Source: Tricholoma matsutake
Lineage: Eukaryota; Basidiomycota; Agaricomycetes; Agaricales; Tricholomataceae
Reading direction: 5' to 3'
Assembly (NCBI GenBank): GCA_026075535.2
Contig: AP026542.1
Coordinates: 8,804,001 to 8,868,000, forward strand
DNA length: 64,000 nucleotides
The position numbers were made by a program, and so were the translations under genes. The notes under the pieces were generated by a model. That model saw only the letters and a list, made by a program, of their open reading frames with translations. It had not been told where the DNA came from and made no database searches. Positions 2,859 to 43,019 of the stretch are shown in pieces (the first letter of the stretch is position 1; every line of letters begins with the position of its first letter).

Positions 2859-3040
2859 CGCAGCGACGATGTGAAGATGGTCAGGAAGATATCTAGGGAC
2901 TCAGAATTATTCGGCCCGGGTGCCGAATCTGAATTTGTCTTAGTAAATAGTATGCACGAGCGGTTCATACGTTCTAAGCATCACAACATTTACTTACATA
3001 AGTACTCTGCTTCTGCTAAAGTCGAACAACGGCCTCAAAC

Positions 3041-3261
3041 CAGGCTCCTAAAACCAGGCTCCTAAAACCAGCTCTCTCGTGTCGTTAGAAGTGGGCGTAA
3101 TCCAAGTACAATATTTTATGAGATGAGAAAAAAAATCCTATTTGAGACATCCGAACACCGAACCGCAACCCACAACTATCGACAGAGAGGCTGGCAAATA
3201 TCAGCAAGAGGAAACCCAATTCTAGGGTCAGGAATACTCGAACCTTCATCAATATAATCTG
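3041..3261 (+). repeat. Left terminal inverted repeat of the DUF6589/helicase element
   Basis: Pairs in inverted orientation with 14812-15006. The motif CAGGCTCCTAAAAC is tandemly doubled at the outer tip. Inside, a 10-bp and a 2-bp insertion distinguish it from the right copy. All CpG sites I compared between the two copies are unchanged. Confidence 0.88.
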
Positions 3262-3719
3262 CGACTTTACTGAGTCTGCTGTATTTATTTCTGTTTGGTA
3301 AAAATATTGATGGCCATGAATAAGAACTTGGAGATAACGATCCTCGAGTCCAAGTCGTGAATTTAAGCTCAAGAATCCATCTTCGTATGTGTCTGTCAAC
3401 AGTCCAATTGGCAGAAAACTCAATTCATATGGCTCCACTTTGGCAGACTTGATTATAGGTTTGTTGGAAGGTGTAGTAGATCACATAGACTATTGTGACA
3501 ATATCCTGCAGAATACCGACAAGATTCTTGGGAGTCTCGCACGTAATCCAACAATTTCTGTAGATGCCATTCACTGGGCACATGAAACTACAATGAGAAC
3601 ATATGCAGATCAGATGCGTGCTCTTGTCCAGGTTAAAACGGGCTTATGGTTCACCACCAAACACTGTACAGCACAGAGCTTGAAAGACTTTGACATAATG
3701 TGGGTAGCAGAACAGATAG

Positions 3720-4145
3720 TATAAGGGCAACCTAAGCCTCTAGCAAAGGGAAATCCGAAGTTAAAATTATACTACATAATACAGGCATTGGGGGCGCACC
3801 TAGCAAAGGGAAATCCGAAGAGAAAACTCTAAGGATCCCCTTGCTGATGCCCAGTATATGTGAAGACGACAAAAATCAAATATAACCTAAAAATAGAAAA
3901 AGGCGGAGATAGGCGGATCAAGGCCGCCGAATGACATCATACCAAGGGGTATGTGTCGGAAGGGGTACTCCGCCTCTAAATATAAAAGTGTCAACATATA
4001 CAAACATGATAGCAAGGGAAAATTAGTAATAAAATCCAGAAAAATCATAGAAAATGAAGAATAGAAGGAAATGAGGTGGGGAAAAATATGGGACGAACAT
4101 AAAAAATAGGAAAAACACACAGGGCACCCCCTTAGTCCCCTTACA
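3720..4145 (-). repeat. 3' LTR of marY1-like copy 1
   Basis: 426 bp. On minus it begins TGTAAGGG and ends CCCTTATA. Contains two direct copies of CTAGCAAAGGGAAATCCGAAG (as read on plus). Differs from the 5' LTR by an A in place of G in the run AAAATCCRGAAAAATC. Confidence 0.96.
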
Positions 4146-4156
4146 TCACCCCCTCT

Positions 4157-7100
4157 CTAAGATGCATCGCCCCGATGCATTCGAAATCGTATACGACCAA
4201 AGTCCGTGACTTGAATGCGACGCGGTGCAGCAGTGTGCCGTCGGTGGAATTCCTTGATTAACCGAGGGGCATTTACGTCAGACTCTTCGACCCATGAGTT
4301 CTCCTCATACCCATAACCCTTCCAATGTACCAAATACTGGAGTTTTCCTCGACGCAAACGGCTGTCCAAGATTGACTCGACTTCATATTGGGGTTCTCCC
4401 TCGATCACTGTAGGTGGTGGTGGTGGGTGTGAATGGCGTCCCGGGAACGGATCTGGGGGAGCTGGAAGCAATTTGACGACATGGAAGACGGGATGGAGTC
4501 TGGACATGGAGGCTGGGAGGCGTAGACGATAGGCATGTGTTCCAACGCACTTGACAATGGGGAAAGGTCCCAAGAAGCGATGAGCGAGTTTCTTGGATGG
4601 ACGTGTAGTGGAGATGTCACTGGAGTCAAGATAAACTCGATCACCAACCTTGTACTGAGGGGTTGGGGAGTGGCGCTGGTTGTAAAATTGCGCCATGTCG
4701 TCCTTCACCTTTGCTAAGGCTGCCCTTGCCTCCTCCAAGCTATCCCTCATGCGTTCTGTGAACTCATTCACTGTCTCGATGTGTGAGGGAGTTTGGCGAG
4801 GTTCAAATCCCATGCGTGGATGTCGTCCAGTGTCTAAGAGGAAAGGGGTCTGTTGAGTGGAAGCATGGACATGGTTGTTGTATCCGAACTCGGCCAAAGG
4901 AAGGAGATCATCCCAATCGTCCTGGCGTTCATTGACAAAGAGGCGGATGTACTGCTCCAGTTCCTGGTTGACTCGCTCTGTCTGGCCATCAGTTTGTGGG
5001 TGATAAGTGGTTGAAGCAAGGAGTTTGATCTCCAGGAGTCGGTACAGCTCACGAGTGAACTCTGCCATGAACTGAGGGCCATGATCTGAGAGGAAGGCAC
5101 CAGGAAGTCCATGTAATTTCCACACGTGGTGGAGGTAGAGTCGAGCGGCACCTAGGGCACTGACAGTGGTGTGAGTGGGAATGAAGTGAGCGCGTTTTCC
5201 CACTGAGTCAACTGTGCACATCACCGCATCAAACCCATTTGACTCTGGCAATTCCACCACAAAGTCGACGCTGACGACATCCCAACGACTCTCTGGAACA
5301 GGAAGAGGGTGTAGCTCACCAATAGGCTTGCAACGAGGGACCTTGGTGCATAAGCAAAGGTCACAAGTGCGACAATACTGACCAATGAGCCGTGACATTT
5401 GTGGCCACCAATAGTTCCGTGAGGTGAGCTCCAAGGTCTTCCAGCGTCCGGGGTGGCCAGCAATCTGTGAGTCATGGTGTTGGGATATGATGCGCCGGCG
5501 AAGGTCTGGGTCATTGGGAACATAGATGCGATCCCTGAAATACAACAAGTCCTCCTTTTCAGCCCACTCTGCCGCACGTAAGGAAAGGGTCGATCCCTTC
5601 CTCAGTTCTTTAACAGCTCGGGCGACAACATCCTCATGTAAACCGCTATGGTTTGCGCGACGAATGTCACGTAGAATGTCCCACTCCTCGCCCTGGGGTA
5701 CGATGCCTTCCAGTGCCCAAATGGTGAACAGGTCTGGCTGCAACAGCACAATGTTTTGGTTGTCACCGCTGCCATTCCCATGGTCTGCACGTCGGGATAG
5801 GGCATCGGTCTTCCCCATGCTGCGACCCGGACGGTGGTGCAAGGAGAAGTCGAATCTAGATAGATACAGGGACCAACGAGCTTGATGACGGTTCAATTTC
5901 TTGGCCGTCATGAAGTACTCGAGGTTCTTGTGATCCGTCCAAATTTCCACCTTGTGTTGGGCACCCTCGAGGAAGTGTCGCCACTCCTCAAGCGCACGCA
6001 TTATCGCCAACATCTCCTTGTCATGGATCTCGTAGTTTCTCTCTACAGCACTAAGGCTTTTGGAGTAGAACGCAACAGGATGCCACTTCTGGTCCTCCGG
6101 AGACTGCTGAGACAACACAGCGCCCGTTGCAAAGTCAGAACTGTCGGCTTCTACACGAAAAGGACGCGAATCGTCAGCAAAGGTAAGGATCGGAGCGGAA
6201 GTGACCATCTCCTTAAGCTTTTCGAACGCCTCCTGTTGTGCATTATCCCACCTCCATGCCTCCTTTCCTGTCAAGTCGAACAGCAGTCGTGCATGATGTG
6301 AGAAATCCTTGATAAAACGCCGATAAAAATTGATGAAGCCCAGGAAAGACTGCACCTCCTTCTTGTTCGTGGGCGTAGGCCAAGCTGTGACCCCATTTAC
6401 CTTGATAGGATCCATCTCCACTTGACCCTCCGAGATAATCAGGCCGAGGTACTCGATCTTGGTCCTTTCGAACTCGCATTTGTCCTGACGAAGGTAGAGT
6501 TTGTACCGTCGAAGTCGCTCTAGGATGAGGCGCGTGATGCGACGGTGCTCTTCAACCGTGCGAGTGAAGATGAGGATGTCGTCGAGATAGATGCAGACAA
6601 TGCCTTCGAGGATGAGGTCATGGAAGATGTCGTTCATCATGGTCTGAAAGGTGGCAGGGCTATTAGTAAGGCCAAAGAACATGACAAGCGGTTCAAAAAG
6701 ACCACGGTTGGTACGAAAGGCTGCCTTCCACTCATCTCCCTCCTTTATCCTCACATTATTATAGCCCCAATGGACATCGAGCTTGGTGAAGTATCGGGCT
6801 CCACGGAGCTGGTTTACGAGTTCGGAGATGAGGGGTAGTGGGTAGCGATTTTTGACCGTGATGTTGTTGAGTCTTCTGTAGTCTTGAACCGGTCGAAGTG
6901 AGCCATCCTTCTTCTTGACAAAGAAAAAGGGAGAGGCCATGGGTGACTTCGATGGTCGAATACGTCCAGAGGCCAGGTGCTCGTTGATGAACTGGTCAAG
7001 CTGCCGTTGTTCCTCCGGAGAGAGAGGATAGACCTTGCAGGATGAAGGGGTTGCGCCGGGGGTGAGTTCGATCGCGTGATCCCATGGCTTACGCGCAGGA

Positions 7101-8066
7101 AGAGAGTCGAATGACTCCTTGGAGAACACGTCTTCAAACTCATGGAGATGAGGGAGTAAGGAGTTAGTAGAGGATTTAGCAGCGTTGTTTCTGTGGAAGG
7201 CCTCGGCGAGGCGTTGGGATATGTTCGATGTGGCACACACCTCATGCGATGAGCGAATCGCAGTGTAGAAGATCCGATCACCCTCCTCCACTTCCTCTGG
7301 GTCCTCATCATCATCATCCGAGTCCGGCATTAGATCAGGAACCCCTTCCAATTCCACTTCAGGTATAGGCAGGGGTCCAGCACGACACTTCTGAGTTCGT
7401 CGTATTGCCGCCTTCTGTCCACGACGTTCTTGCCTGGCTTCTGTGAAACACGTCCGACAGCGGGATGGACATCGGCTCATGGACCTCCCCGGTGCGCCAG
7501 TCGACCTCTGGGTTATGGTCTCGAAGCCATGGATATCCCAAAATCGCCTTTTGCTTTCCTAATTGAGTGACAGCAAAAAGGGCACGCTCACTATGATCTT
7601 TGTAACGGAGAACCAGGTCTGCAACCTCTCGGATGGCACCAGCTTCATTTGGGGATCCATCCACATTATATACAGGTATCGGACGTGAGAGTGAGCGAGT
7701 ATTTAGACGATGTTGTTGTACCAGATGGGAATCAATGAAGAGACCAGTCGCACCAGAGTCCAGGAGCGCAGAAACACCGAGTATCTGTCCAGTGTCGGTC
7801 GTCTGCAGTTCGATGGCTAGGTTTAAGGAATGTGCAGAGGGAGTGGATGCCACAATATACTTGCGTGGTAGTTTACGCTCCCATGATTTAATTTTGGGAC
7901 GTGGAGTAGAAGGAGAGATGGGGAGAGCAGGTACGTCTTTAGCCAACTTCGAAGGGTCAGAGAGGGGAGCAGTCACAGAAATGGATTCATTCTCCAGGGA
8001 TTCAACTGACAAGACTTCAAAGCGGTTATGGACAGGCAGTGAGGGCGTACGATTCACTCGCTGCAA
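4157..8066 (-). pseudogene. pol: Gypsy Pol (protease-RT-RNase H-integrase-chromodomain), frameshifted
   Basis: Two reading frames hold one former Pol. The upstream frame (to 7359) carries the aspartic protease motif LLDSGATGLFID. The downstream frame (7480-4157) has reverse transcriptase with IYLDDILIF, RNase H with VEADSSDFATGAVLSQQ, an integrase zinc finger ending CRTCDLC, the integrase core and a C-terminal chromodomain (YLVHWKGYGYEENSW). The break is a 2-bp deletion near 7482 relative to copy 2 (CATGGACC against CATGGTAACC). Apart from that frameshift and scattered transitions the frames are open, so inactivation is recent. Confidence 0.95.
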
Positions 8067-9172
8067 ATAGGAAAATCCTGCTCCTCTACAACTTCCAGCT
8101 TAACCTCCTCTGCAACTTGATCCTTCGCTTCCTCAACATCTACAAGTGCCAACAGATCTTGCAGGAGTTCGTCTCGTCCCTCGGGGGTGAGCATGCGGAT
8201 ATCCTGACGATGGGGACACGCTCCAGCCCTGTGTCCAGGTTCCCCACAACGGTAGCAGAGATCCAACTTACGTGCACGGCTGCGGGCTGCATCAACATCC
8301 ATTGGTACTGGGATATTGACGGCTGGTGTGGGAGTTTGACGAGCAGGAATGGGGTTAGGGCGGGGGAGGCTTCAATTGAAGGTGTAGGGTGTATGAGTGG
8401 TAGTTGGAGCACGGAATGCAGCATTAAACGCCGCATTTGTGAGTCGGTTCTCGTCACAGAGTGAAGCAGCTTCATACCAAGCAAGGATATCATCGTCCGC
8501 TGGGCGCCCTTCCAACATCTGTGCAATCTGGTCCTGAATTTCTCGGTTGAGCCCCCGTCGGAACTTCACCACCACTGGTAACCCACTCCCATACCCTGCC
8601 ATGTCCACCAAATCCTTGAACTCATCGATATAGTCGTCCATGGATCGACGTCCCTGGTGGTAAGTGGATGACTCAAGTCGTGTCACTGCTCGGTGGCGTT
8701 CATTGAGGGGGCAGAAGTGGCGTACGAACTCAGCTCGAAAGTCACCCCAAGTGGAGAAAGGTAGAGAACCGAGTTCTTTAGTTTGACGTAGGATACGGTC
8801 CACATAGAGATAGGCGCGTTCAGATTTCATGTATGTGAAGGCCCAATAAATTTTTGCAGCCTCATCGACGAATTGATGCGACTGGAGACTAATGTATAAC
8901 TCACAGGAATTAAGGAATGCACGTCCCTGCGCACGTGCACCATTAAATTCGGCGGGGGGGGACGGTTTGATCTGGGCACGTTCCTTAGTGGACGCGTTTG
9001 GCAAAACATCGTTGTTGGGTGCGCTTGGAGTCGTGAAGGGGGAACTATTAGTCGTAGGGTTAGCCTGGAGGGTCCTAACGAAGTTCTCAATCGTAGATTT
9101 AAGCGAGTCGATTTGCGCGCGCATTCCGGAAACGTCGCTTTCAAGTGCGTCGAAGCGTTCTGATGCGTCCAT
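8054..9172 (-). pseudogene. gag: Gypsy Gag with nonsense codon
   Basis: Gag begins MDASERFDALESDVSG and would encode 372 residues, as in copy 2. Here codon 268 is TGA (8372-8374) where copy 2 has CGA, a C-to-T change at a CpG. The separated C-terminal part keeps the CCHC zinc knuckle CYRCGEPGHRAGAC. Residues before the stop match the capsid-like retrotransposon gag fold seen in fungal Gypsy elements (family knowledge). Confidence 0.93.
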
Positions 9173-9338
9173 GTCGCTAGGGAGCGCGTTTGGCGAAAAT
9201 GGCGGCGCAATAAAGGCGAGAGTATCTGGAACGGTGTGTAGGGACTCTGTGGAGCTTTGGGAAGCGTCGTCCAGTCCGTACCTGCCTATTTTGGGCAGCG
9301 CGTTCGCGATTTTCGGGCCTTAGGGGAGAGTTTTCTAC

Positions 9339-9764
9339 TATAAGGGCAACCTAAGCCTCTAGCAAAGGGAAATCCGAAGTTAAAATTATACTACATAATA
9401 CAGGCATTGGGGGCGCACCTAGCAAAGGGAAATCCGAAGAGAAAACTCTAAGGATCCCCTTGCTGATGCCCAGTATATGTGAAGACGACAAAAATCAAAT
9501 ATAACCTAAAAATAGAAAAAGGCGGAGATAGGCGGATCAAGGCCGCCGAATGACATCATACCAAGGGGTATGTGTCGGAAGGGGTACTCCGCCTCTAAAT
9601 ATAAAAGTGTCAACATATACAAACATGATAGCAAGGGAAAATTAGTAATAAAATCCGGAAAAATCATAGAAAATGAAGAATAGAAGGAAATGAGGTGGGG
9701 AAAAATATGGGACGAACATAAAAAATAGGAAAAACACACAGGGCACCCCCTTAGTCCCCTTACA
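9339..9764 (-). repeat. 5' LTR of marY1-like copy 1
   Basis: 426 bp and carries the promoter for the minus-strand transcript. A TATACTGG box lies about 28 bases before AGAGTTTTCT (complement of 9440-9449), the likely RNA start. That 10-mer is complementary to the presumed primer site at 9327-9336, 2 bases past the LTR. Confidence 0.95.
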
Positions 9765-9769
9765 GATAG

Positions 9770-10065
9770 AGGTGAAGGCACCACACCTTTGGGAGCTTCT
9801 TGGTGTTCTTCTAGCAGCAGACTCAAGTGCAAATGCATTCTGAGAGTCTAGAGGAAAGCAACATTGAGAGAACATGAAGGCGACAAGCAAAACTATGGAT
9901 GGAGATATTGTGATAGGTGAAGATGATGATAGCAAGGTGGAGTACTGGCAAGACCAAGACAATCCATTTCTCGAGGATGAACATGATGAGGATGAGGCAA
10001 TGAAGCAACAGGAGGCACTGATAACATAACAATTGTTGGTGGAAACATTACACTCATAGATAGAA
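9770..10065. other. Interior of DUF6589 gene after the Gypsy target duplication
   Basis: The coding trace on plus resumes directly at 9770. It includes an acidic run DGDIVIGEDDDSKVEYW and EDEHDEDEAMKQQ near 9900-10000, with stops that need an intron or damage to bridge. It is included in the pseudogene span and holds no separate gene. Confidence 0.5.
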
Positions 10066-12196
10066 TTGAGCTCACCTTTGGCAGAAAAAGGTTGTCTGCA
10101 TGAGTATAATGATGCAGAGCTCAAATCAATGCTGCAACACTTTGCAAAGTGCTGTGGGGATATTCTTGGAATCCTGCAACACACCAGAAACTGTTCAAGA
10201 ACTTCTCACACATATAGGATTGTCTATCTCGACCACAACAACCAACAAGATGATCGACAGTCTATCAGAGGAGTCACACCAAGATCCAAGCCCTTGGCCA
10301 GACTCTCCTGGCATCATATGCATATGACAACCTTGATATTGACCTTAAGCATGCCATTCCAACAATTGAGAAAGATCCTACGACATTGATTCATCTTACC
10401 TTGGCCACCATGCTTCCAATGGATGACACTGTTGTGCTTGAGGACTTGAACTGTTCTGAGGCACTGTGGAAACAATCATGTTTAGATATCAAAGCTCACC
10501 GCAGTGATCTAGCACATCTACCAGATATAAATAACCTTCTAGATATACACCCCGAGATGGACCACTCTTCAGGTTTATTATGACATGATCAATTTAATGC
10601 ATGGGTGTTCTTATGTGACCTGGTTAAACATGGTCCTGACTATTTTTGAGCCTTCTCAGAACAGCTGGATGCACCAGAAGTCATTGAGCAGCTACCCATA
10701 AAAAAAACATGACAAGTACCTTTGAAAATGATGGATATAAATCCAGCAACCCCAGCAGCTAATGGGGATGTGCAGGATGGGATATTTGGGCAAACTGTTG
10801 TTGGAGATCTGAAGGATACAGCAACATATGTGAAAGACATCAGTAACCATGTTGTTTTGGAACATGGCAATCTTGTTGTTGTTGGGCAGCATATTGAGAG
10901 TCTCCAAGAGTCCCGATCACCCAAAGTGACACCATGGCGCTGCCAGCAATTTATTGTGTATGTCATGGGCCTGTTTCACCTCAAGATGGCATCATGCCAT
11001 TGGCATATGCAGATGCAATTTGGCGAATATTTATAAAGCCAAGTGATGACCCAAACTGTTTGATAAAGCACATAAGTGAGCTGCGCCCAAAGAAAACAGG
11101 AAAGATCACAAGCAATCCTGGCTTTCATCGCATGCATGAGGTCATTCAGCATGTTGGGATTGTGTCACAGCTGGATTGTTGGCATGATGAGGCAGTCAAA
11201 ACCTATTCAGCTGCAGGTGTTCAGTCACTCAAAGACTTTTGCTGCAACAAAACCCACTTGGATCCAGCTTGAGGCTATGGCAAATCAGATGTGCATTGGG
11301 TGCATGGCACAGGCTGACTTTTCACAACGCGATATGCCACAGTGTGTTTGGGATGCTGAGCATGAAAACATGATGATATGACAGCAATATTTCCTCCGTT
11401 ATGAAGAAATGTCCTATGCCTTGGACTGTGGGGACATTGGTCATGTGGAGGACTGTTTCTTGCCATGGGCATTCATTTTTTGAGGCTGTGGTAAGCACAA
11501 GTATGCAAAACACATGGTAAAGCATCTTTACAATGTGCATTTTGTATATCCTGACCATTTGAAGTGAGTGCAAGTTCATCTTCATTGACAATAGCACTTA
11601 CAATTACTATAGGAGAGCTGTCCAGTTGAGTATGTTGTGCAATCCGAGTGGCAAAGCTGGTAAGTTTCGAGCAATTGATTGGCTGGTTGAGCATAACAAC
11701 CTGTATCTGAAGGTGATTAAACATTTATTATGTGCATCAGCAGGCCCTGATAAGTATGTTCACAGAGAATCTACGGAGGGAGATTCTCTAATCACACAAA
11801 AGCGAGAATTTTGAAGCATTCTCCCTTGATTGAAGTCTTCAAAAACACTCATATTCAATTCGAGAGGATGTTTGCGCTTGAACATAGAACCATATGACAC
11901 TCTCCACCTCACCTTGAGAGAACCTTCAAATGGCTAGGTGACTACATGGTAAGAAACAATACAAGCACCCATGTAGATGGGTGGAAAGCCTCCCATAGCA
12001 TTGCAGATGTGATGGGAAAAGGTATGCAAGTATTTTTGATGGCGGTAGGGCCACAGGGTAGTGGAGATGACAAAGATGAGCATTGGGAGGATGTTGAAGA
12101 GGAAGTAGAAGATGGTGGGGATCTCAACATGTGAGGTACTAGCATAACACTTGTATATATATCAATTCACAAGTGATAGTTTACGCTGTGGATACA

Positions 12197-14751
12197 TCAA
12201 GCATAGAAATGATGGAGGTGAACAGTATCTTGGAATTGGACTGGTAGTTGGTATTGGGATGCAACAGGTTCATGATAGTGACTAGGCATCTGAAATTGGA
12301 CAATATTTGGTGGAGATGATATGAACAGCTCCAACTGGGGTAGATTTGATCCAGATGTGAGGGCATGGGGAGAAATGGAGATACCAGTGACTTGTGAGCA
12401 GGGAGTGTTCTCATCATGCAAGAGAGTAAGAGTTGGCCCCTGCTGCAATTGTGCCATCATGATATTGACAGGGCAGAGACCATTCATTCCTAACCAATCA
12501 ACATGTCAGTGAGATGATGACAAACCATAAAATGTAACATACCGATATGTCCTTCTTGTTTGCATTTCCCACACTGCTGCTTCTTCTGCATGGGAAGGCC
12601 TGATGAGTTCTTTTGCAAACCACTAGTGAGTGCTGTCAGGAGCGGCAGACTGAATGGCATATGCAGGCCAATGAGTTCCAGTAGTGATGGACCATGCTTA
12701 TTTGCACCTGTCCAGTGCATCTCTCTCTCCAAACTTTCCACTGACATAAGCTTTGACGCATGGACACAATCCACAATCCATTGAAAGATATCATCAGGGA
12801 GAAGATACTTTGCACCATATTTTCATGTCAGGATAAGCCCAAAGTTTGCGATCATTTGCTGTTTCCACCAGTCCAGTATTGCTTGTTTCAGTTTGCAATC
12901 TCTGTTGAGCATTTCGTATAGCTTTATGTTTGACTTTGCTGGTGCTCGAGCTGGTTTAAGGATTGTAGCAGCCATTAAATCTTCAAAGTTGGCTGGATTG
13001 CAAAGATTGCAGCAAAGATGAGTAGGTTTGGGTTGACAGTGGGTGGTTCCAATCGGTGTGGTGTTATCGCAGAGCAGATGGAATGGGATTGCTTAAGGAA
13101 GATCATGAGAACAAATTAAACATCATAGGTGATTGCACTCACCAGGACTAATCTTGTCATTGCCAAAGTATACCATCACAGGCTCTCATCGACATGGAAG
13201 GCCTTGGCTTGTAGCATTCACAAAGTCATCAATTGTGCTACCCCTTGCAAGACTATGGTGTTTTCCCTTCTTTTTTGGCTTCTCTGTTCTTGTGGTATCA
13301 TGATACCGGCCTCGCCGAACATCCACATCCTCTGCTGCTATACAGGGCAGTGCATCTCTGATTGGACCTTCTGCCTGGCCATCCTCTTCATTAACATCAT
13401 CCTTGCTCTCATCCTCATTTGCTTCGCTGCTGTTCTCTCGCTGAACATTGACATTCCTATCAACAAGGGCAGGACGTTTGGCTGCCTGACCTATCTGTGC
13501 CCCCACCTTTCACTTTCTTCCTGCTTGTCTCTTCTCTTTGGCAGTTTGTTTCTTATGATGTTGATCATCAAAGTTGGCCTTCTCAACAAAAACAATTGCA
13601 ACCCCTTCCTCTCCCTCGCCTTGTGCTGCTCAGCCAATCCATTGCCAAAGTGTGCACATGGTACACCTCAACTTCCACTGGACAACAATCTTTACATCAG
13701 GGAGGTCCAGACCCTGTGAAGTGTGAGTCACTTGCATAGCCCGTATCAATAGAACACTTACCATTCCAAATGCATTGGTTACACACAGTCCCCAAAGATT
13801 GTCTTTCTTCAAAGCTTCAAATTCTTCCCAAGGCATCATCGTCAAGTGGAACCATTTGATCTTCTCCCACAATGATGGTGTAAGTCGAGTGTGTAGGTGT
13901 TTTATGGCTGCCTCTGCTTCTTTTGTGTTGTCAAAGAAGACTAGAAACTTGTTGGGTGGATCATTGCCTTCTTTGAAGTTATCGGGTATGAGAAAGGTGA
14001 GGTCAGCATATGAACTAACTGTGTACTTGATTTCTCGAATGGCAAGGTGGATATTCGGTCAATCATTAGAGCAGGTGATGTGCTCAGTTTCCCACCATAG
14101 GTGTAGTATTCTTGTGACATCAAGTAAGACATCAAGTGGCAAAGTGGCAGAGGCTACATAGAAGGGGATATCCTCTGGGATGAGATACTGGAGGTTTCCC
14201 AACAGCAGGTACTCATTCCGGAAGGCTCCCCATTGACTAATGCAGTGGCCTTCATCAAAGATGTAGCACAGGAGCCACAATGTCTTTCGCCACAATCCCT
14301 CAACAGTTGGGTTTCCCATTAAGATCTCTGGATCAATAACCATGACCTGATATATCCCATTCTCAATATCCTAGAAGTCATTAAGTTTAAATCACATTTC
14401 AGTGAAATGCTGTTGTACCTGAAATGTTTGTTCATTTGCATTCTCTTTGCTCACTGCAATGGCATTTACATCAGCAGCTCCCAAGTCTCAAATTGTTTGC
14501 TTTCCCAAGATGTTAAGAGGTGTTACTATAACTTCCATCTTGTCCTCGCCATCCTCCAATACCATCAGTAGAGCAATCCAGAAAGACAGAGTTTTCCCTG
14601 AGCCAGTAGCAGCAGTCCCGATGACATCCTTCTTCTCATATATGGCAAGTGCAATTTTTATCTGGAACCAGCAAGGTCGTCTCCTCAGTTTTCTTTCCAC
14701 AAGATCACATATCTCTTTGATAGTCCAAGTTTGTTGAGCCTGGGATACCAT
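12197..14751 (-). pseudogene. RecQ-like DNA helicase with nonsense codons, inside the TIR element
   Basis: Superfamily 2 helicase of RecQ type. Seen: motif I ATGSGKTLSFW near 14610, the DEGH box YIFDEGHCISQWG near 14240, motif III-like YVASATLP near 14150, VTNAFGM and GLDLPDVKIVVQW (motif V region, split by an intron near 13730), then motif VI as QWIG*AAQG at about 13625. Motif VI should read QxxGRxxR. Its first arginine is TGA (13630-13632) and the second is CAA. Other in-frame TGA codons lie at 14488-14490, 14059-14061 and 13186-13188. The C-terminus has a Cys-rich run CGKCKQEGH near 12570 and a Q-rich tail. Start taken at MVSQAQQTW (14751), and an upstream ATG at 14802 is possible. Such helicases recur in agaricomycete repeats. 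Its association with DUF6589 here is by shared TIRs. Confidence 0.82.
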
Positions 14752-14811
14752 TTTTGGCAAGTGTGAAAAATATCGGATATGGCAGCTGTCAAAAAAATAC
14801 AATCAAAACCC

Positions 14812-15006
14812 CAGATTATATTGATGAAGGTTCGAGTATTCCTGACCCTAGAATTGGGTTTCCTCTTGCTGATTTGCCAGCCTAGTTGTGGGTTGCGGTT
14901 CGGTGTTCGGATGTCTCAAATAGGATTTTTTTTCTCATCTCATAAAATATTGTACTTGGATTACGCCCACTTCTAACGACACGAGAGAGCTGGTTTTAGG
15001 AGCCTG
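14812..15006 (-). repeat. Right terminal inverted repeat of the DUF6589/helicase element
   Basis: Reverse complement of 3041-3261 apart from indels. It ends GGAGCCTG and is followed by the target duplication GCCTCAAAC (15007-15015). It probably contains the helicase promoter, since the helicase reading frame starts just beside it. Confidence 0.88.
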
Positions 15007-15015
15007 GCCTCAAAC

Positions 15016-15413: not shown

Positions 15414-16659
15414 TTACGAAACCTCCTCCATGTCGTCGTCGTCGTCATCCTCCTCCTCCTCATCGGCCTCATCCATCTTGATATCTCCCAAACCGACACC
15501 GCTCGGGCCAGCGACATCCTCTCCCTTCATCTAGATAATGAGCATAAGTTCATTCCCTCGAAAATGCGAGAGAGGGATGATATTTACCCCTTCTCCCTTG
15601 AAGTTGTCTTTCAACTCCCACAAACCATTATATTCACCGCTACGGTGCAGGAACGCGACCTCCGACAACACCTCCTTCAGATAAACCTCAGGCTGCTGTG
15701 TGCGTTCACGTAACGCCCGTATGCCCCACCGAGGCGGATCGCGGAACAACGAAAATATTTGATCAAGCAGTTGGTTGCGGGGCATACGAGCCATGCGCTC
15801 GAATTGACCCTTTGCGTGTTTTGGTTTCGTTTTCTGTTAGGCAATTTCCTCAATGCATTCCAGAAGAATAACGCCAGACAACGTACAATGAGGTCACCAA
15901 ATGCGCCAGTAGCACCCACGCCCACGCCGCTGCTAAGTCTGTTGACACCGCCTCGGCCACCAGGGATACCCGCATCATCAATCATCCTAATCTGCCTCAG
16001 AGGCGTGTTGTACTTCCTATGTCGCTCCCTCATCTGCTTGCGGTAGCTCTCGCTGAACGCTGGTCGCAGGTTACACTCATGTTTGATCCGACCAGTCAGA
16101 ATCGTTGTTCGCGCGCGTGTGTTAGTTGTCGCCGCAGCTGCAGTCATTGAAATACTGAGCGATGGATCCTTTGGACGCTCGGCGACCACTATCTGGTTTT
16201 CCACAGAATCATTGACCATCTCAAGCTCGTATGCATCTGGTTCCGAGCTAGACGTGGGATATACTGTTGTGTTCAAGAACACTGGACGGTTGGGTTGCTG
16301 AGGCGGTGGTGGGCCATCCGGCTCTGCTGGGTCTCGATTGGGGGGTAGGAATAGCACAATGCGCGGCTTCTTGCTAACGGGGTTCAAAGCATTGCTGTAA
16401 ACGCGAATAGTGGCAAGGTGTACATCTTCTGCGTCGATAGAGGCCCAGCGCTCCATGAGAAATTTTGGGACCTAGTTGAGCAACATAGTGGGTTTTAGAG
16501 GAGCATATTTAGGGATTAGGTGTAGCATACTTTGACCAACCACACACGACCATTGCCTTGGTCCAACATTAAATGCTCATCAGGATCTGGCTGCGAATCC
16601 TCCTCCTCCGGGTTTTCCGCATCGAAAGGCTTCTTCTCGTCGTCGATGGGGCCGTCCAT
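15414..16659 (-). CDS. TFG2: Transcription initiation factor IIF subunit beta (RAP30/Tfg2)
   Basis: Small subunit of TFIIF, which escorts RNA polymerase II to promoters in the nucleus. Four exons join in phase (16531-16659, 15887-16471, 15588-15797, 15414-15530), giving 346 residues. An acidic N-terminus leads to the dimerisation domain (GNGRVWLVKVPKFLMERW at about 36-53) and the GRIKHECNLRP motif that is a signature of RAP30. The C-terminal winged helix starts near residue 240: RNQLLDQIFSLF, RERTQQPEVYLKEVL and LHRSGEYNGLWELK. The tail is strongly acidic (EADEEEEDDDDDDMEE). The start is the ATG opening MDGPIDDEKKP, and all splice sites are canonical. It looks intact. A TIR element begins 114 bases upstream of the start codon. 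Confidence 0.95.
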
Positions 16660-33720: not shown

Positions 33721-33955
33721 CTGGGCACGTCGCGAACGCGCCTTAATTGGCTGCGAACGACGTTGACTTCATCATCTCCAAATTATAACCTTGCGCTCTT
33801 CGTGAGCTGCATTGCGCTCCCTGCGAGCTGCACATAAAACCTAGGTTGACTAGGGTTAACCACTCTGAAGGAGTGTTTTCTCCTGAGAACGTTAAACATG
33901 TTTTATTGAGTAAAAAGACTGATTGAGCGCTTTTAACAGCTGCCACCACAAAATC

Positions 33956-34735
33956 ATGTCTTCAACTCTTGAGAAACTTGTTCAAACTTTTGACGGATCA
34001 AATTACATTCAATGGGCTGACTCAATGAAGGTGTGGCTCAGGTCTCAGGGCCTCTGGCAAATAACTAGCGGGGCGGAGCAAAAACCGCCCCCGGCACCTC
34101 CCTTGATGGCGACGAACGCTACTTTGGTAGCGGATGCTAATGCCAAGCTCCAGACCTGGAGCAACAAAAATGACCAGGCCATTGGTAGCCTAGTGCTCCA
34201 CCTGGCCCCCTCCATTCAGCAGCATGCCAACTCAAAGGACACTGCTGAGGAGGTGTGGGATCTCATCCGCACCGATTATGGTGTGGACAGCCCCTCCCAA
34301 GTCTTTGCGGACTTTAGGTCTGCAATAGCGATCAAGATCCCGGCTGCGAACCCCGCACCGGAGATTGCTAGAATGGCAGACAAATTTGAGCGCCTTACGG
34401 CTGCTAATGTCACCATCCCCGAGCTAGTGCAAGCAATGATTCTACTTGCTGCGATGCCACGCGAGTACGATTCCTTGTCCGCAACGGTCCTTAACACGAC
34501 CACTACTAGCGCCTTGACATTTAAACATGTCAAGGACTCCATTGTCGCTGAAGCCTCAAGGCACACAGCAGTAGGAAAGCCCGCTGGCCAGCCTCAGGCC
34601 AACAAACTTTCCACTGTTAAACGCAAAGGGGGAAACCCCAAATGGCAGCCCAAAGAAGGGCAAAACAGCAACGGAGACTCGTCCCGAAAGTGTGGACAAC
34701 ATGGGGACAGAAAGACTAAGGAGGAGAAGCTGAAG
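33956..34735 (+). pseudogene. gag-pol: Copia Gag-Pol, N-terminal part (Gag)
   Basis: Starts MSSTLEKLVQTFDGSNYIQW and runs open for 260 codons to the Gypsy insertion. The pattern (YIQWADSMKVWLRSQGLW, AEEVWDLIRTDYG, and a later AMPREYDSL) is the Copia Gag (UBN2-like) domain. The C-terminal part is Lys/Gln-rich and lacks an obvious CCHC knuckle. Past the inserted Gypsy and its duplicated TGAAG the same frame continues at 40788 without loss. Confidence 0.9.
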
Positions 34736-35161
34736 TATAAGGGCAACCTAAGCCTCTAGCAAAGGGAAATCCGAAGTTAAAATTATACTACATAATACAG
34801 GCATTGGGGGCGCACCTAGCAAAGGGAAATCCGAAGAGAAAACTCTAAGGATCCCCTTGCTGATGCCCAGTATATGTGAAGACGACAAAAATCAAATATA
34901 ACCTAAAAATAGAAAAAGGCAGAGATAGGCGGATCAAGGCCGCCGAATGACATCATACCAAGGGGTATGTGTCGGAAGGGGTACTCCGCCTCTAAATATA
35001 AAAGTGTCAACATATACAAACATGATAGCAAGGGAAAATTAGTAATAAAATCCGGAAAAATCATAGAAAATGAAGAATAGAAGGAAATGAGGTGGGGAAA
35101 AATATGGGACCAACATAAAAAATAGGAAAAACACACAGGGCACCCCCTTAGTCCCCTTACA
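34736..35161 (-). repeat. 3' LTR of marY1-like copy 2
   Basis: 426 bp. Differs from the 5' copy by GCAGAG against GCGGAG and TCCGGA against TCTGGA, both transitions. Confidence 0.95.
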
Positions 35162-35174
35162 TCACCCCCTCTCT
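35162..35174 (-). promoter_or_regulatory. Polypurine tract of marY1-like copy 2
   Basis: On minus AGAGAGGGGGTGA directly precedes the TG of the 3' LTR, where plus-strand DNA synthesis is primed in this family. The same tract occurs at 4146-4158 in copy 1. Confidence 0.75.
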
Positions 35175-38100
35175 AAGATGCATCGCCCCGATGCATTCGA
35201 AATCGTATACGACCAAAGTCCGTGACTTGAATGCGACGCGGTGCAGCAGTGTGCCGTCGGTGGAATTCCTTGATTAACCGAGGGGCATTTACGTCAGACT
35301 CTTCGACCCATGAGTTCTCCTCATACCCATAACCCTTCCAATGTACCAAATACTGGAGTTTTCCTCGACGCAAACAGCTGTCCAAGATTGACTCGACTTC
35401 ATATTGGGGTTCTCCCTCGATCACTGTAGGTGGTGGTGGTGGGTGTGAATGGCGTCCCGGGAACAGATCTGGGGGAGCTGGAAGCAATTTGACGACATGG
35501 AAGACGGGATGGAGTCTGGACATGGAGGCTGGGAGGCGTAGACGATAGGCATGTGTTCCAACGCACTTGACAATGGGGAAAGGTCCCAAGAAGCGATGAG
35601 CGAGTTTCTTGGATGGACGTGTAGTAGAGATGTCACTGGAGTCAAGATAAACTCGATCACCAACCTTGTACTGAGGGGTTGGGGAGTGGCGCTGGTTGTA
35701 AAATCGCGCCATGTCGTCCTTCGCCTTTGCTAAGGCTGCCCTTGCCTCCTCCAAGCTATCCCTCATGCGTTCTGTGAACTCATTCACTGTCTCGATGTGT
35801 GAGGGAGTTTGGCGAGGTTCAAATCCCATGCGTGGATGTCGTCCAGTGTCTAAGAGGAAAGGGGTCTGTTGAGTGGAAGCATGGACATGGTTGTTGTATC
35901 CGAACTCGGCCAAAGGAAGGAGATCATCCCAATCGTCCTGGTGTTCATTGACAAAGAGGCGGATGTACTGCTCCAGTTCCTGGTTGACTCGCTCCGTCTG
36001 GCCATCAGTTTGTGGGTGATAAGCAGTTGAAGCGAGGAGTTTGATCCCCAGGAGTCGGTACAGCTCACGAGTGAACTCTGCCATGAACTGAGGGCCACGA
36101 TCCGAGAGGAAGGCACCAGGAAGTCCATGTAACTTCCACACGTGGTGGAGGTAGAGTCGAGCGGCACCTAGGGCACTGACAGTGGTGTGAGTGGGAATGA
36201 AGTGAGCGCGTTTTCCCACTGAGTCAACTGTGCACATCACTGCATCAAACCCGTTTGACTCTGGCAATTCCACCACAAAGTCGACGCTGACAACATCCCA
36301 ACGACTCTCTGGAACAGGAAGAGGGTGTAGCTCACCAATAGGCTTGCGACGAGGGACCTTGGTGCGTAAGCAAAGGTCACAAGTGCGACAATACTGACCA
36401 ATGAGCCGTGACATTTGTGGCCACCAATAGTTCCGTGAGGTGAGCTCCAAGGTCTTCCAGCGTCCGGGGTGGCCAGCAATCTGTGAGTCATGGTGTTGGG
36501 ATATGATGCGCCGGCGAAGGTCTGGGTCATTGGGAACATAGATGCGATCCCTGAAATACAACAAGTCCTCCTTTTCAGCCCACTCTGCCGCACGTAAGGA
36601 AAGGGTCGATCCCTTCCTCAGTTCTTTAACAGCTCGGGCGACAACATCCTCATGTAAACCGCTACGGTTTGCGCGACGAATGTCACGTAGAATGTCCCGC
36701 TCCTCGCCCTGGGGTACGATGCCTTCCAGTGCCCGAATGGTGAACAGGTCTGGCTGCAACAGCACAATGTTTTGGTTGTCACCGCTGCCATCCCCATGGT
36801 CTGCACGTCGGGATAGGGCATCGGTCTTCCCCATGCTGCGACCCGGATGGTGGTGCAAGGAGAAGTCGAATCTAGATAGATACAGGGACCAACGAGCTTG
36901 ACGACGGTTCAATTTCTTGGCCGTCATGAAGTACTCGAGGTTCTTGTGATCCGTCCAAATTTCCACCTTGTGTTGGGCACCCTCGAGGAAGTGTCGCCAC
37001 TCCTTAAGCGCACGCATTATCGCCAACATCTCCTTGTCATGGATCTCGTAGTTTCTCTCTACAGCACTAAGGCTTTTGGAGTAGAACGCAACAGGATGCC
37101 ACTTCTGGTCCTCCGGAGACTGCTGAGACAACACAGCGCCCGTCGCAAAGTCAGAACTGTCGGCTTCTACACGAAAAGGACATGAATTGTCAGCAAAGGT
37201 AAGGATCGGAGCGGAAGTGACCATCTCCTTAAGCTTTTCGAACGCCTCCTGTTGTGCATTATCCCACCTCCATGCCTCCTTTCCTGTCAAGTCGAACAGC
37301 GGTCGTGCATGATGTGAGAAATCCTTGATAAAACGCCGATAAAAATTGATGAAGCCCAGGAAAGACTGCACCTCCTTCTTGTTCGTGGGCGTCGGCCAAG
37401 CTGTGACCCCATTTACCTTGATAGGATCCATCTCCACTTGACCCTCCGAGATAATCAGGCCGAGGTACTCGATCTTGGTCCTTTCGAACTCGCATTTGTC
37501 CTGACGAAGGTAGAGTTTGTACCGTCGAAGTCGCTCTAGGACAAGGCGCGTGATGCGACGGTGCTCTTCAACCGTGCGAGTGAAGATGAGGATGTCGTCG
37601 AGATAGATGCAGACAACGCCTTCGAGGATGAGGTCATGGAAGATGTCGTTCATCATGGTCTGAAAGGTGGCAGGGCTATTAGTAAGGCCAAAGAACATGA
37701 CAAGCGGTTCAAAAAGACCATGGTTGGTACGAAAGGCTGCCTTCCACTCATCTCCCTCCTTTATCCTCACATTATTATAGCCCCAACGGACATCGAGCTT
37801 GGTGAAGTATCGGGCTCCACGGAGCTGGTTTACGAGTTCGGAGATGAGGGGTAGTGGGTAGCGATTTTTGACCGTGATGTTGTTGAGTCTTCTGTAGTCT
37901 TGAACCGGTCGAAGTGAGCCATCCTTCTTCTTGACAAAGAAAAAGGGAGAGGCCATGGGTGACTTCGATGGTCGAATACGTCCTGAGGCCAGGTGCTCGT
38001 CGATGAACTGGTCAAGCTGCCGTTGTTCCTCCGGAGAGAGAGGATAGACCTTGCAGGATGAAGGGGTTGCACCGGGGGTGAGTTCGATCGCGTGATCCCA

Positions 38101-39075
38101 TGGCTTACGCGCAGGAAGAGAGTCGAATGACTCCTTGGAGAACACGTCTTCAAACTCATGGAGATGAGGGAGTAAGGAGTTAGTAGAGGATTTAGCAGCG
38201 TTGTTTTTGTGGAAGGCCTCGGCGAGGCGTTGGGATATGTTCGATGTGGCACACACCTCATGCGATGAGCGAATCGCAGTGTAGAAGATCCGATCACCCT
38301 CCTCCACTTCCTCTGGGTCCTCATCATCATCATCCGAGTCCGGCATTAGATCAGGAACCCCTTCCAATTCCACTTCAGGTATAGGCAGGGGTCCAGCACG
38401 ACACTTCTGAGTTCGTCGTATTGCCGCCTTCTGTCCACGACGTTCTTGCCTGGCTTCTGTGAAACACGTCCGACAGCGGGATGGACATCGGCTCATGGTA
38501 ACCTCCCCGGCGCGCCAGTCGACCTCTGGGTTATGGTCTCGAAGCCATGGATATCCCAAAATCGCCTTTTGCTTTCCTAATTGAGTGACAGCAAAAAGGG
38601 CACGCTCACTATGATCTTTGTAATGGAGAACCAGGTCTGCAACCTCTCGGATGGCACCAGCTTCATTTGGGGATCCATCCACATTATATACAGGTATCGG
38701 ACGTGAGAGTGAGCGAGTATTTAGACGATGTTGTTGTACCAGATGGGAATCGATGAAGAGACCAGTCGCACCAGAGTCCAGGAGCGCAGAAACACCGAGT
38801 ATCTGTCCAGTGTCGGTCGTCTGCAGTTCGATGGCTAGGTTTAAGGAATGTGCAGAGGGAGTGGATGCCACAATATACTTGCGTGGTAGTTTACGCTCCC
38901 ATGATTTAATTTTGGGACGTGGAGTAGAAGGAGAGATGGGGAGAGCAGGTACGTCTTTAGCCAACTTCGAAGGGTCAGAGAGGGGAGCAGTCATAGAAAT
39001 GGATTCATTCTCCAGGGATTCAACTGACAAGACTTCAAAGCGGTTATGGACAGGCAGTGAGGGCGTACGATTCAC
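35173..39075 (-). CDS. pol: Gypsy Pol polyprotein (protease, RT, RNase H, integrase, chromodomain)
   Basis: One open frame of about 1,300 codons. In order: protease LLDSGATGLFID (about residue 105), reverse transcriptase with [12 protein letters not shown] and IYLDDILIF (about 440-530), RNase H VEADSSDFATGAVLSQQ (about 660), an integrase HHCC finger ending CRTCDLC (about 915), the DDE core (VDSVGKRAHFIPT; FLSDRGPQF; YHPQTDGQTERVNQEL), a GPF/Y-like stretch and a C-terminal chromodomain YLVHWKGYGYEENSWVEE, which defines a chromovirus. There is no ATG at the beginning. The frame enters as GTG overlapping the Gag stop TGA in -1 phase, so expression must use frameshifting or re-initiation. No internal stop. 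Confidence 0.95.
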   Translation of the reverse strand: MNRTPSLPVHNRFEVLSVESLENESISMTAPLSDPSKLAKDVPALPISPSTPRPKIKSWERKLPRKYIVASTPSAHSLNLAIELQTTDTGQILGVSALLDSGATGLFIDSHLVQQHRLNTRSLSRPIPVYNVDGSPNEAGAIREVADLVLHYKDHSERALFAVTQLGKQKAILGYPWLRDHNPEVDWRAGEVTMSRCPSRCRTCFTEARQERRGQKAAIRRTQKCRAGPLPIPEVELEGVPDLMPDSDDDDEDPEEVEEGDRIFYTAIRSSHEVCATSNISQRLAEAFHKNNAAKSSTNSLLPHLHEFEDVFSKESFDSLPARKPWDHAIELTPGATPSSCKVYPLSPEEQRQLDQFIDEHLASGRIRPSKSPMASPFFFVKKKDGSLRPVQDYRRLNNITVKNRYPLPLISELVNQLRGARYFTKLDVRWGYNNVRIKEGDEWKAAFRTNHGLFEPLVMFFGLTNSPATFQTMMNDIFHDLILEGVVCIYLDDILIFTRTVEEHRRITRLVLERLRRYKLYLRQDKCEFERTKIEYLGLIISEGQVEMDPIKVNGVTAWPTPTNKKEVQSFLGFINFYRRFIKDFSHHARPLFDLTGKEAWRWDNAQQEAFEKLKEMVTSAPILTFADNSCPFRVEADSSDFATGAVLSQQSPEDQKWHPVAFYSKSLSAVERNYEIHDKEMLAIMRALKEWRHFLEGAQHKVEIWTDHKNLEYFMTAKKLNRRQARWSLYLSRFDFSLHHHPGRSMGKTDALSRRADHGDGSGDNQNIVLLQPDLFTIRALEGIVPQGEERDILRDIRRANRSGLHEDVVARAVKELRKGSTLSLRAAEWAEKEDLLYFRDRIYVPNDPDLRRRIISQHHDSQIAGHPGRWKTLELTSRNYWWPQMSRLIGQYCRTCDLCLRTKVPRRKPIGELHPLPVPESRWDVVSVDFVVELPESNGFDAVMCTVDSVGKRAHFIPTHTTVSALGAARLYLHHVWKLHGLPGAFLSDRGPQFMAEFTRELYRLLGIKLLASTAYHPQTDGQTERVNQELEQYIRLFVNEHQDDWDDLLPLAEFGYNNHVHASTQQTPFLLDTGRHPRMGFEPRQTPSHIETVNEFTERMRDSLEEARAALAKAKDDMARFYNQRHSPTPQYKVGDRVYLDSSDISTTRPSKKLAHRFLGPFPIVKCVGTHAYRLRLPASMSRLHPVFHVVKLLPAPPDLFPGRHSHPPPPPTVIEGEPQYEVESILDSCLRRGKLQYLVHWKGYGYEENSWVEESDVNAPRLIKEFHRRHTAAPRRIQVTDFGRIRFRMHRGDAS

Positions 39076-40190
39076 TCGCTGCGAATAGGAAAATCCTGCT
39101 CCTCTACAACTTCCAGCTTAACCTCCTCTGCAACTTGATCCTTCGCTTCCTCAACATCTACAAGTGCCAACAGATCTTGCAGGAGTTCGTCTCGTCCCTC
39201 GGGGGTGAGCATGCGGATATCCTGACGATGGGGACACGCTCCAGCCCTGTGTCCAGGTTCCCCACAACGGTAGCAGAGATCCAACTTACGTGCACGGCTG
39301 CGGGCTGCATCAACATCCATTGGTACTGGGATATTGACAGCTGGTGTGGGAGTTTGACGAGCAGGAATGGGGTTAGGGCGGGGGAGGCTTCGATTGAAGG
39401 TGTAGGGTGTATGAGTGGTAGTTGGAGCACGGAATGCAGCATTAAACGCCGCATTTGTGAGTCGGTTCTCATCACAGAGTGAAGCAGCTTCATACCAAGC
39501 AAGGATATCATCGTCCGCTGGGCGCCCTTCCAACATCTGTGCAATCTGGTCCTGAATTTCTCGGTTGAGCCCCCGTCGGAACTTCACCACCACTGGTAAC
39601 CCACTCCCATACCCTGCCATGTCCACCAAATCCTTGAACTCATCGATATAGTCGTCCACGGATCGACGTCCCTGGTGGTAAGTGGATGACTCAAGTCGTG
39701 TCACTGCTCGGTGGCGTTCATTGAGGGGGCAGAAGTGGCGTACGAACTCAGCTCGAAAGTCACCCCAAGTGGAGAAAGGTAGAGAACCGAGTTCTTTAGT
39801 TTGATGTAGGATACGGTCCACATAGAGATAGGCGCGTTCAGATTTCATGTATGTGAAGGCCCAATAAATTTTTGCAGCCTCATCGACGAATTGATGCGAC
39901 TGGAGACTAATGTATAACTCACAGGAATTAAGGAATGCACGTCCCTGCGCACGTGCACCATTAAATTCGGCGGGGGGGGACGGTTTGATCTGGGCATGTT
40001 CCTTAGTGGACGCGTTTGGCAAAACATCGTTGTTGGGTGCGCTTGGAGTCGTGAAGGGGGAACTATTAGTCGTAGGGTTAGCCTGGAGGGTCCTAACGAA
40101 GTTTTCAATCGTAGATTTAAGCGAGTCGATTTGCGCGCGCATTCCGGAAACGTCGCTTTCAAGCGCGTCGAAGCGTTCTGATGCGTCCAT
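39072..40190 (-). CDS. gag: Gypsy Gag
   Basis: 372 residues from MDASERFDALESDV. A capsid-like region (GARAQGRAFLNSCELYISLQ; FRAEFVRHFCP; YIDEFKDLVDMAGYGSGLP) is followed by a CCHC nucleocapsid knuckle CYRCGEPGHRAGAC near residue 310 and an acidic tail ending at GAG-TGA. The stop TGA overlaps the Pol frame. Intact, unlike copy 1. Confidence 0.95.
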   Translation of the reverse strand: MDASERFDALESDVSGMRAQIDSLKSTIENFVRTLQANPTTNSSPFTTPSAPNNDVLPNASTKEHAQIKPSPPAEFNGARAQGRAFLNSCELYISLQSHQFVDEAAKIYWAFTYMKSERAYLYVDRILHQTKELGSLPFSTWGDFRAEFVRHFCPLNERHRAVTRLESSTYHQGRRSVDDYIDEFKDLVDMAGYGSGLPVVVKFRRGLNREIQDQIAQMLEGRPADDDILAWYEAASLCDENRLTNAAFNAAFRAPTTTHTPYTFNRSLPRPNPIPARQTPTPAVNIPVPMDVDAARSRARKLDLCYRCGEPGHRAGACPHRQDIRMLTPEGRDELLQDLLALVDVEEAKDQVAEEVKLEVVEEQDFPIRSE

Positions 40191-40344
40191 GTCGCTAGGG
40201 AGCGCGTTTGGCGAAAATGGCGGCGCAATAAAGGCGAGAGTATCTGGAACGGTGTGTAGGGACTCTGTGGAGCTTTGGGAAGCGTCGTCCAGTCCGTACC
40301 TGCCTATTTTGGGCAGCGCGTTCGCGATTTTCGGGCCTTAGGGG

Positions 40345-40354
40345 AGAGTTTTCT
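40345..40354 (-). promoter_or_regulatory. Candidate self-priming site of marY1-like copy 2
   Basis: On minus AGAAAACTCT starts two bases after the 5' LTR. It is perfectly complementary to AGAGTTTTCT inside the LTR (complement of 40458-40467), which sits about 28 bases after a TATACT box. No tRNA-like TGG primer site is present here. The Tf1/sushi group primes from the folded 5' end of its own RNA, and this arrangement fits. Confidence 0.65.
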
Positions 40355-40356
40355 AC

Positions 40357-40782
40357 TATAAGGGCAACCTAAGCCTCTAGCAAAGGGAAATCCGAAGTTA
40401 AAATTATACTACATAATACAGGCATTGGGGGCGCACCTAGCAAAGGGAAATCCGAAGAGAAAACTCTAAGGATCCCCTTGCTGATGCCCAGTATATGTGA
40501 AGACGACAAAAATCAAATATAACCTAAAAATAGAAAAAGGCGGAGATAGGCGGATCAAGGCCGCCGAATGACATCATACCAAGGGGTATGTGTCGGAAGG
40601 GGTACTCCGCCTCTAAATATAAAAGTGTCAACATATACAAACATGATAGCAAGGGAAAATTAGTAATAAAATCTGGAAAAATCATAGAAAATGAAGAATA
40701 GAAGGAAATGAGGTGGGGAAAAATATGGGACCAACATAAAAAATAGGAAAAACACACAGGGCACCCCCTTAGTCCCCTTACA
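40357..40782 (-). repeat. 5' LTR of marY1-like copy 2
   Basis: 426 bp promoter-bearing LTR. The TATA motif is the complement of about 40491-40497. Two direct 21-bp repeats lie downstream of the inferred RNA start. Confidence 0.95.
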
Positions 40783-40787
40783 TGAAG

Positions 40788-42209: not shown

Positions 42210-42635
42210 TGTAAGGGGACTAGGGGGGTGCCCTGTGTGTTTTTCCTATTTTTTATGTTGGTCCCATATTTTTCCCCACCTCATTTCCTTCTATTCTTCA
42301 TTTTCTATGATTTTTCCGGATTTTATTACTAATTTTCCCTTGCTATCATGTTTGTATATGTTGACACTTTTATATTTAGAGGCGGAGTACCCCTTCCGAC
42401 ACATACCCCTTGGTATGATGTCATTTGGCGGCCTTGATCCGCCTATCTCTGCCTTTTTCTATTTTTAGGTTATATTTGATTTTTGTCGTCTTCACATATA
42501 CTGGGCATCAGCAAGGGGATCCTTAGAGTTTTCTCTTCGGATTTCCCTTTGCTAGGTGTGCCCCCAATGCCTGTATTATGTAGTATAATTTTAACTTTGG
42601 ATTTCCCTTTGCTAGAGGCTTAGGTTGCCCTTATA
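42210..42635 (+). repeat. Solo marY1-like LTR (hybrid, left inversion breakpoint)
   Basis: 426 bp, plus orientation (opposite to copies 1 and 2). Left flank is GGCGT (42205-42209) and right flank CCCAC (42636-42640). They do not match each other but match the flanks of the LTR at 45692-46117, the sign of recombination between two LTRs. Confidence 0.95.
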
Positions 42636-42726
42636 CCCACCCCAATGACCCTTGGGCACTTTACTCTCACCGAAGTGGCAACCAAGAGCTGGCATACCTT
42701 TACTCATGCTGGTCAGGTATGGCAGG

Positions 42727-42987: not shown

Positions 42988-43019
42988 CCCCCCCTCAAAC
43001 TGTAAAGCGCTCTAAGCAG

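Follow-up and report, generated by a model that had tools for sequence, protein, structure and literature searches.

The 64,000-nt stretch of Tricholoma matsutake DNA analysed here (the window, C5:8804001-8868000 of the assembly) carries at positions 3032-15015 a unit bounded by terminal inverted repeats (TIRs) and a target-site duplication (TSD), in which a gene of the DUF6589 family and a RecQ-like helicase gene converge. A sequence-only reading had proposed this unit as an undescribed transposon, with DUF6589 either as the recombinase of a new superfamily or as a gene captured by some other element. The features of the unit are the following, in order along the window.

3032..3040, no strand: left 9-bp TSD GCCTCAAAC, from flank comparison
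3041..3266, plus strand: left TIR, pairing with the right TIR from 3055 on
3419..3718, plus strand: 5' part of the DUF6589 gene (very probably a transposase), which aligns with P0136 (residues 15-113) and precedes the nested retrotransposon
3720..9764, minus strand: nested gypsy-type long terminal repeat (LTR) retrotransposon, foreign to the transposon itself; domains recognised: reverse transcriptase, RNase H, integrase zinc binding, chromo
9763..12023, plus strand: remainder of the DUF6589 gene, disrupted by stops and shifts of frame; PF20231 is matched inside 10713-11033 and 10898-11269
10326..10328, plus strand: first predicted catalytic Asp (YDNLD), from alignment with homologues
10869..10871, plus strand: codon aligned with the second predicted catalytic Asp, encoding Asn (HGNL) in the window copy, from alignment
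11689..11691, plus strand: predicted catalytic Glu (DWLVE), from alignment
12200..14802, minus strand: convergent RecQ-like superfamily 2 (SF2) helicase gene in several frames, with motif I GSGKT (14590-14604) and motif II DEGHCIS (14236-14256)
14805..15006, minus strand: right TIR, from inverted-arm alignment
15007..15015, no strand: right 9-bp TSD GCCTCAAAC, from flank comparison

The nearly identical inverted repeats and the perfect 9-bp duplication described in the sequence-only reading were borne out by our alignments. The two arms pair over 125 nt at 100% identity (3054-3178 with 14883-15007) and over a further 69 nt at 96% (3200-3268 with 14805-14873), their end-to-end alignment showing two indels, of 10 and 2 bp, as the sole differences outside a ragged inner edge, and GCCTCAAAC is found intact at both 3032-3040 and 15007-15015. 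At the left terminus (3041-3068) the outermost 14 bases are doubled in tandem; the extra copy, CAGGCTCCTAAAAC, occupies 3041-3054, the 9-bp duplication lies outside it, and none of the 10 other TIR pairs found in the genome (see below) has such a copy. The termini of the window family read 5'-CAGGCTCC..GGAGCCTG-3', and those of a sister family, represented by a divergent element on C8, read CAGCCTCC..GGAGGCTG.

Within these ends, Pfam recognised PF20231 (DUF6589) in two stretches of the plus strand (E 7.2e-9 and 3e-9) and a DEAD-type helicase on the minus strand, and no further transposase among the window frames scanned. The DEAH segment of the helicase found recQ_fam as its best NCBIfam model (1.1e-11), the Walker A segment gave weak matches to SF2 helicases of other kinds, and NCBIfam recognised nothing in a third segment. 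The claim that these two were the only genes of the unit had overlooked the gypsy-type retrotransposon, whose LTRs (3717-4145 and 9336-9764) of about 429 bp are 99.5% identical and which is flanked by GATAG at 3715-3719 and 9765-9769. Its insertion splits the DUF6589 gene, the homology to P0136 running through 3419-3718 and resuming from 9763. Since some 6 kb of the unit belong to this retrotransposon, the element proper measures about 6 kb, which is comparable to the 6165 bp of the C8 element. Judging by its sequence, the window copy is dead, because its DUF6589 gene shows stops and frame changes relative to homologues and an Asn in place of the second invariant Asp (10869-10871).

The same assembly (161 Mb in 13 contigs) was searched with the outermost 159 bp of the window's left TIR, which matched at least 28 places; 20 of these 28 matches form 10 inverted pairs, the window included, and the 8 without a partner were left out of the counts. 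The ten pairs are spaced 1.2 to 38 kb apart with both ends readable in all of them. When the C8 element is added, 9-bp flanks agree in at least eight of nine positions in 11/11 TIR pairs (perfectly in 8, with one mismatch in 3), whereas none of 110 crossed flank pairs used as a control reached that level, so that the duplication is not due to chance. No other flank length from 5 to 13 gives a comparable match in the 11 pairs. The duplicated bases show some preference, with G at position 1 in 7.5/11 and C at position 9 in 9/11, half counts being given where the two copies disagree. Short copies of 1.2-1.3 kb, with TIRs and duplication as in the window family, are read as non-autonomous derivatives. 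Among the long relatives, two of about 38 and 20 kb hold DNA matching the window retrotransposon, and a third of about 18 kb contains frames that by eye look retroviral.

Empty sites, whose search had been suggested by the sequence-only reading, were sought with joined flanks for 3 of the 11 insertions and found for two of them; these matches are paralogous sites, not alleles. The target of C13:3173777-3181608 is an abundant repeat, and all 40 scored matches (of 890 candidates) cross the junction at 87-91% identity. For C7:3470101-3471278, the junction is crossed at 94% by C4:8860715-8860826 and at 79-91% by further places, one of them adjoining the element itself. The joined flanks of the window insertion gave no empty site in the assembly. 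As a separate observation, a 20-kb TIR pair at C3:7760726-7780509 is flanked by a perfect 9-bp duplication, and neither DUF6589 nor the helicase was matched inside it; its interior contains gypsy-type DNA and, by eye, copia-like frames, and it is read as a non-autonomous copy filled by nested elements.

The association of DUF6589 with TIRs and helicase extends well beyond the window. A genome search for DUF6589 returned 38 entries, reduced to 36 distinct loci after dropping two that shared a locus with another. Two more copies of the window family keep, between their TIRs, the order of DUF6589 on the plus strand followed by the helicase on the minus strand. Outside this family, the C8 element (locus L071) has TIRs of its own (216 nt, 96%), is flanked by a perfect 9-bp duplication and contains the two genes in the same convergent order, with transposase matches 34-49% identical and helicase matches 23-43% identical except for one 14-residue piece at 79%. 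Its TIR, used as a query, revealed three additional DUF6589 loci enclosed by inverted pairs, and two others with a single end nearby. The repeated TIRs and duplications around both genes that the sequence-only reading had proposed to look for occur in independent copies. A consistent lack of TIRs around DUF6589 loci, which it had named as the contrary outcome, is not what we observe, at least 7 of the 36 being enclosed by TIR pairs with only two TIR queries, 4 of these 7 with a readable 9-bp duplication. Nor did the Pfam-scanned frames show these TIRs enclosing a standard transposase of the MULE (Mutator-like element), hAT or KDZ type.

Genome-wide, a convergent RecQ-like helicase match lies within 6 kb of 26/36 DUF6589 loci; one locus has the helicase in another arrangement and 9 have no helicase match within that distance. 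Random placement, for which C4, C10 and C12 were taken as 12 Mb each, gave a mean of 0.07 loci with a convergent helicase and a maximum of 2. The 3' part of the helicase was found within 1.5 kb at 18 of the 30 loci fetched, convergent among the matches listed. It was also present at four of the nine loci (L042, L063, L065 and L068) that had no match within 6 kb, which brings those with some helicase evidence to 30/36. Two further observations concern these loci. Stops inside the DUF6589 matches are mostly TGA (25/29 in a hand count of the genome matches), an excess as expected from decay of CGA codons by C-to-T change, to which introns may contribute. The C8 element has, immediately internal to its left TIR (L071:2030-2409), a long foldback with arms of 147 nt at 88%, possibly a nested miniature inverted-repeat transposable element.

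A search with a 580-aa DUF6589 frame gave 536 matches at E ≤ 0.001, of which 120 were listed; those with a named source in this listing belong to fungi, among them the Agaricomycetes Mycena, Suillus and Athelia. No relative was found in viral contigs. Sequences were chosen from the 120 by length and coverage to build two alignments, A1 (68 rows) and A2 (71 rows). A triad of two Asp and one Glu (D/D/E) is invariant in A2, and neither C/DxxH nor CxxC is conserved at a 70% threshold between the second D and the last E of its 71 rows. A strict motif around the last Glu is found in 41 of the 120 listed proteins; 32 listed proteins extend past an NPTG motif, 19 of them fitting the strict Glu pattern and 13 showing D-W-x-x-E by eye. 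All 68 members scanned with Pfam matched PF20231, any other family being matched by at most 3 of them with a best E of 0.013 (25 of 28 families shown), and a DUF6589 profile found nothing among PDB sequences at E ≤ 1.

DDE/D transposases share an RNase H-like core with the acidic residues on the first β-strand, after the fourth and on a following helix. The predicted model of one DUF6589 protein, P0053, agrees with this general scheme, having D280 in strand 275-282, D466 after strand 461-465 and E722 on helix 717-733, with 185 residues between the two Asp and 255 from the second Asp to the Glu. It replaced a first model, P0043, whose gene model skipped the segment of the last Glu and which gave lower fold scores. 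In the structure comparison of P0053, the first 11 rows are all transposases, including the P element and Hermes, with modest Z scores; chains of MULE, KDZ or Academ are absent among the fold matches listed, which excludes none of them. The RNase H-like DDE core that the sequence-only reading had advised to look for is therefore present in the predicted fold, albeit at modest scores, and DUF6589 would add to it a sizeable helical insertion ahead of the final Glu.

Altogether, these data lead us with good confidence to a DNA transposon of two genes and about 6 kb that has decayed and into which a gypsy-type retrotransposon later inserted; it is most likely of the AcademH type, with DUF6589 as its DDE transposase. 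DUF6589 is very probably a transposase because of the copies with TIRs and TSDs, the empty sites, the pairing with the helicase, the D/D/E triad and the predicted fold, and on these grounds the initial idea of a TIR-transposon recombinase that travels with a helicase is supported. Mechanistically, a DUF6589 multimer would bind the ~200-bp TIRs, release the element from its donor site and insert it at a target whose strands are cut 9 bp apart, so that repair would produce the 9-bp duplication, and the convergent RecQ-like helicase may help to open or process the ends or to repair the donor gap. The near identity of its two TIRs next to a disabled transposase gene suggests that the window copy may last have moved in trans, with enzymes from another copy, although TIR gene conversion, or a decay that set in once the element had inserted, could also explain this. 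If DUF6589 is a transposase, the Pfam name of this family, which covers hundreds of fungal proteins and so far carries no function, would change accordingly, giving cleaner gene counts in Agaricomycetes and a profile for finding such elements. Moreover, because a RecQ-like helicase accompanies DUF6589 so regularly (26/36 loci), the role of helicases in DDE transposition becomes testable.

As for the surroundings, the element lies beside the host TFIIF beta subunit gene at 15531-16471 of the window (PF17683 at 15680-16471, minus strand; its C-terminal part, 15531-15836, by eye). Other mobile DNA occurs within 33923-45743, where another retrotransposon of the gypsy type, its frames resembling those of the first, occupies about 35176-40337 (minus strand) and is flanked by copia-type frames for gag (33923-34756, plus strand) and reverse transcriptase (43023-44771, minus strand). 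A frame at 55119-56300 seems Helitron-related by eye and has no Pfam match, and 62547-63458 matches DUF6570.

Several known groups resemble these elements in one trait or another. MULEs have long TIRs and 8-11 bp duplications, a description that the ends seen here also fit, MuDR being alike in its long TIRs and TSD of about 9 bp, and there are also short copies, 1.2-1.3 kb long, that bear TIRs. That a Mutator-like or KDZ-type element captured host DUF6589 and helicase genes and was moved by a foreign transposase is nevertheless extremely unlikely: DUF6589 and the helicase are found together again in divergent families whose TIRs differ, DUF6589 itself carries the invariant triad in a predicted DDE-like core and lacks the MuDR signature C/DxxH, and the Pfam-scanned frames revealed no transposase of another kind, so that this second option of the sequence-only reading found no support. 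Membership of DUF6589 in MuDR/MULE was rejected on the same missing motif and on the lack of any MULE model among the 25 of 28 Pfam families shown for the 68 members. We give hardly any weight either to a KolobokH-like element, another fungal lineage with a RecQ helicase. Kolobok elements target TTAA, against the 9 variable bases duplicated here. According to the available part of PMC9587614, KolobokH is a fungal DDE transposon lineage with a RecQ helicase, confined to fungi, and its helicase lies downstream of the transposase domain, whereas here it converges from the other strand; the same part describes a Kolobok of a red alga whose RecQ helicase is encoded on the complementary strand, which means that a helicase in opposite orientation is by itself no ground for excluding Kolobok. 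The C/DxxH that this portion of the source places between the second D and last E of Kolobok is, however, not conserved at 70% in DUF6589 (A2, 71 rows), and membership was rejected. The hAT (Hermes) and P elements share with DUF6589 the predicted RNase H-like core and the helical insertion before the last Glu. Despite this similarity of fold, C/DxxH is absent between the second D and the last E of DUF6589, which sets both groups aside, and we know of no helicase in either. The accessible sections of PMC12730594 further give hAT usually 8-bp TSDs, against 9 bp here, Zisupton (KDZ) an 8-bp TSD, and the CMCT clade (EnSpm, Transib, Plavaka) a C(2)C motif and TSDs of 2-5 bp. Zisupton was discarded with 0/11 pairs matching at 8 bp versus 11/11 at 9 (at most one mismatch), and the CMCT clade with its CxxC not conserved and a TSD of 9 bp. 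Subtelomeric RecQ helicase repeats, as they appear in an excerpt of PMC4522978, were dropped because DUF6589 units carry TIRs and TSDs.

Two readings of the kinship of these elements were compared, membership in Academ and a separate group. AcademH elements bear TIRs, as do the window and C8 elements. The AcademH lineage of the Academ superfamily was reportedly described by Kojima (2020, Mob DNA 11:15). In the parts available of PMC10045372 and PMC10799480, it is a helicase-carrying Academ lineage, low in copy number and found in Basidiomycota among others, with TSDs of 9-10 bp (9 or 10 bp by the definition in PMC10045372). According to the available text of PMC8290104, MULE and Academ elements, putatively of non-autonomous kind, have inserted widely in another mushroom, Marasmius oreades. 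One could instead regard the DUF6589 elements as a separate unnamed DDE superfamily that gained its RecQ helicase independently of AcademH and shares the 9-bp duplication by coincidence. PF20231 as the one family matched by all 68 members, the lack of a PDB sequence match and the non-conserved C/DxxH and CxxC speak for it, as does our literature search, which found no paper on DUF6589, and no link to transposases in print, within the collection searched. We consider this unlikely, AcademH being known from Basidiomycota with the same TSD length and helicase in the excerpts cited, and it seems similarly doubtful that DUF6589 forms its own DDE superfamily across Agaricomycetes, apart from Academ, with a regular convergent RecQ helicase needed for transposition. 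The terms undescribed and new superfamily used in the sequence-only reading are thus probably wrong, helicase-encoding AcademH with 9-10 bp TSDs having been published according to those excerpts, and the element is probably a new family of a known kind. The label of probable AcademH is given because TSD length and helicase fit: a 9-bp TSD in 11/11 TIR pairs at eight or more of nine positions, and a RecQ-like helicase with DEAD and Helicase_C matches. Compared by description, DUF6589 elements and AcademH resemble each other in a helicase with DEAD/Helicase_C type domains beside the transposase, TSDs of 9-10 bp and a home in Basidiomycota; as hosts, TSD length and helicase are all shared, that they are one and the same is the simpler reading.
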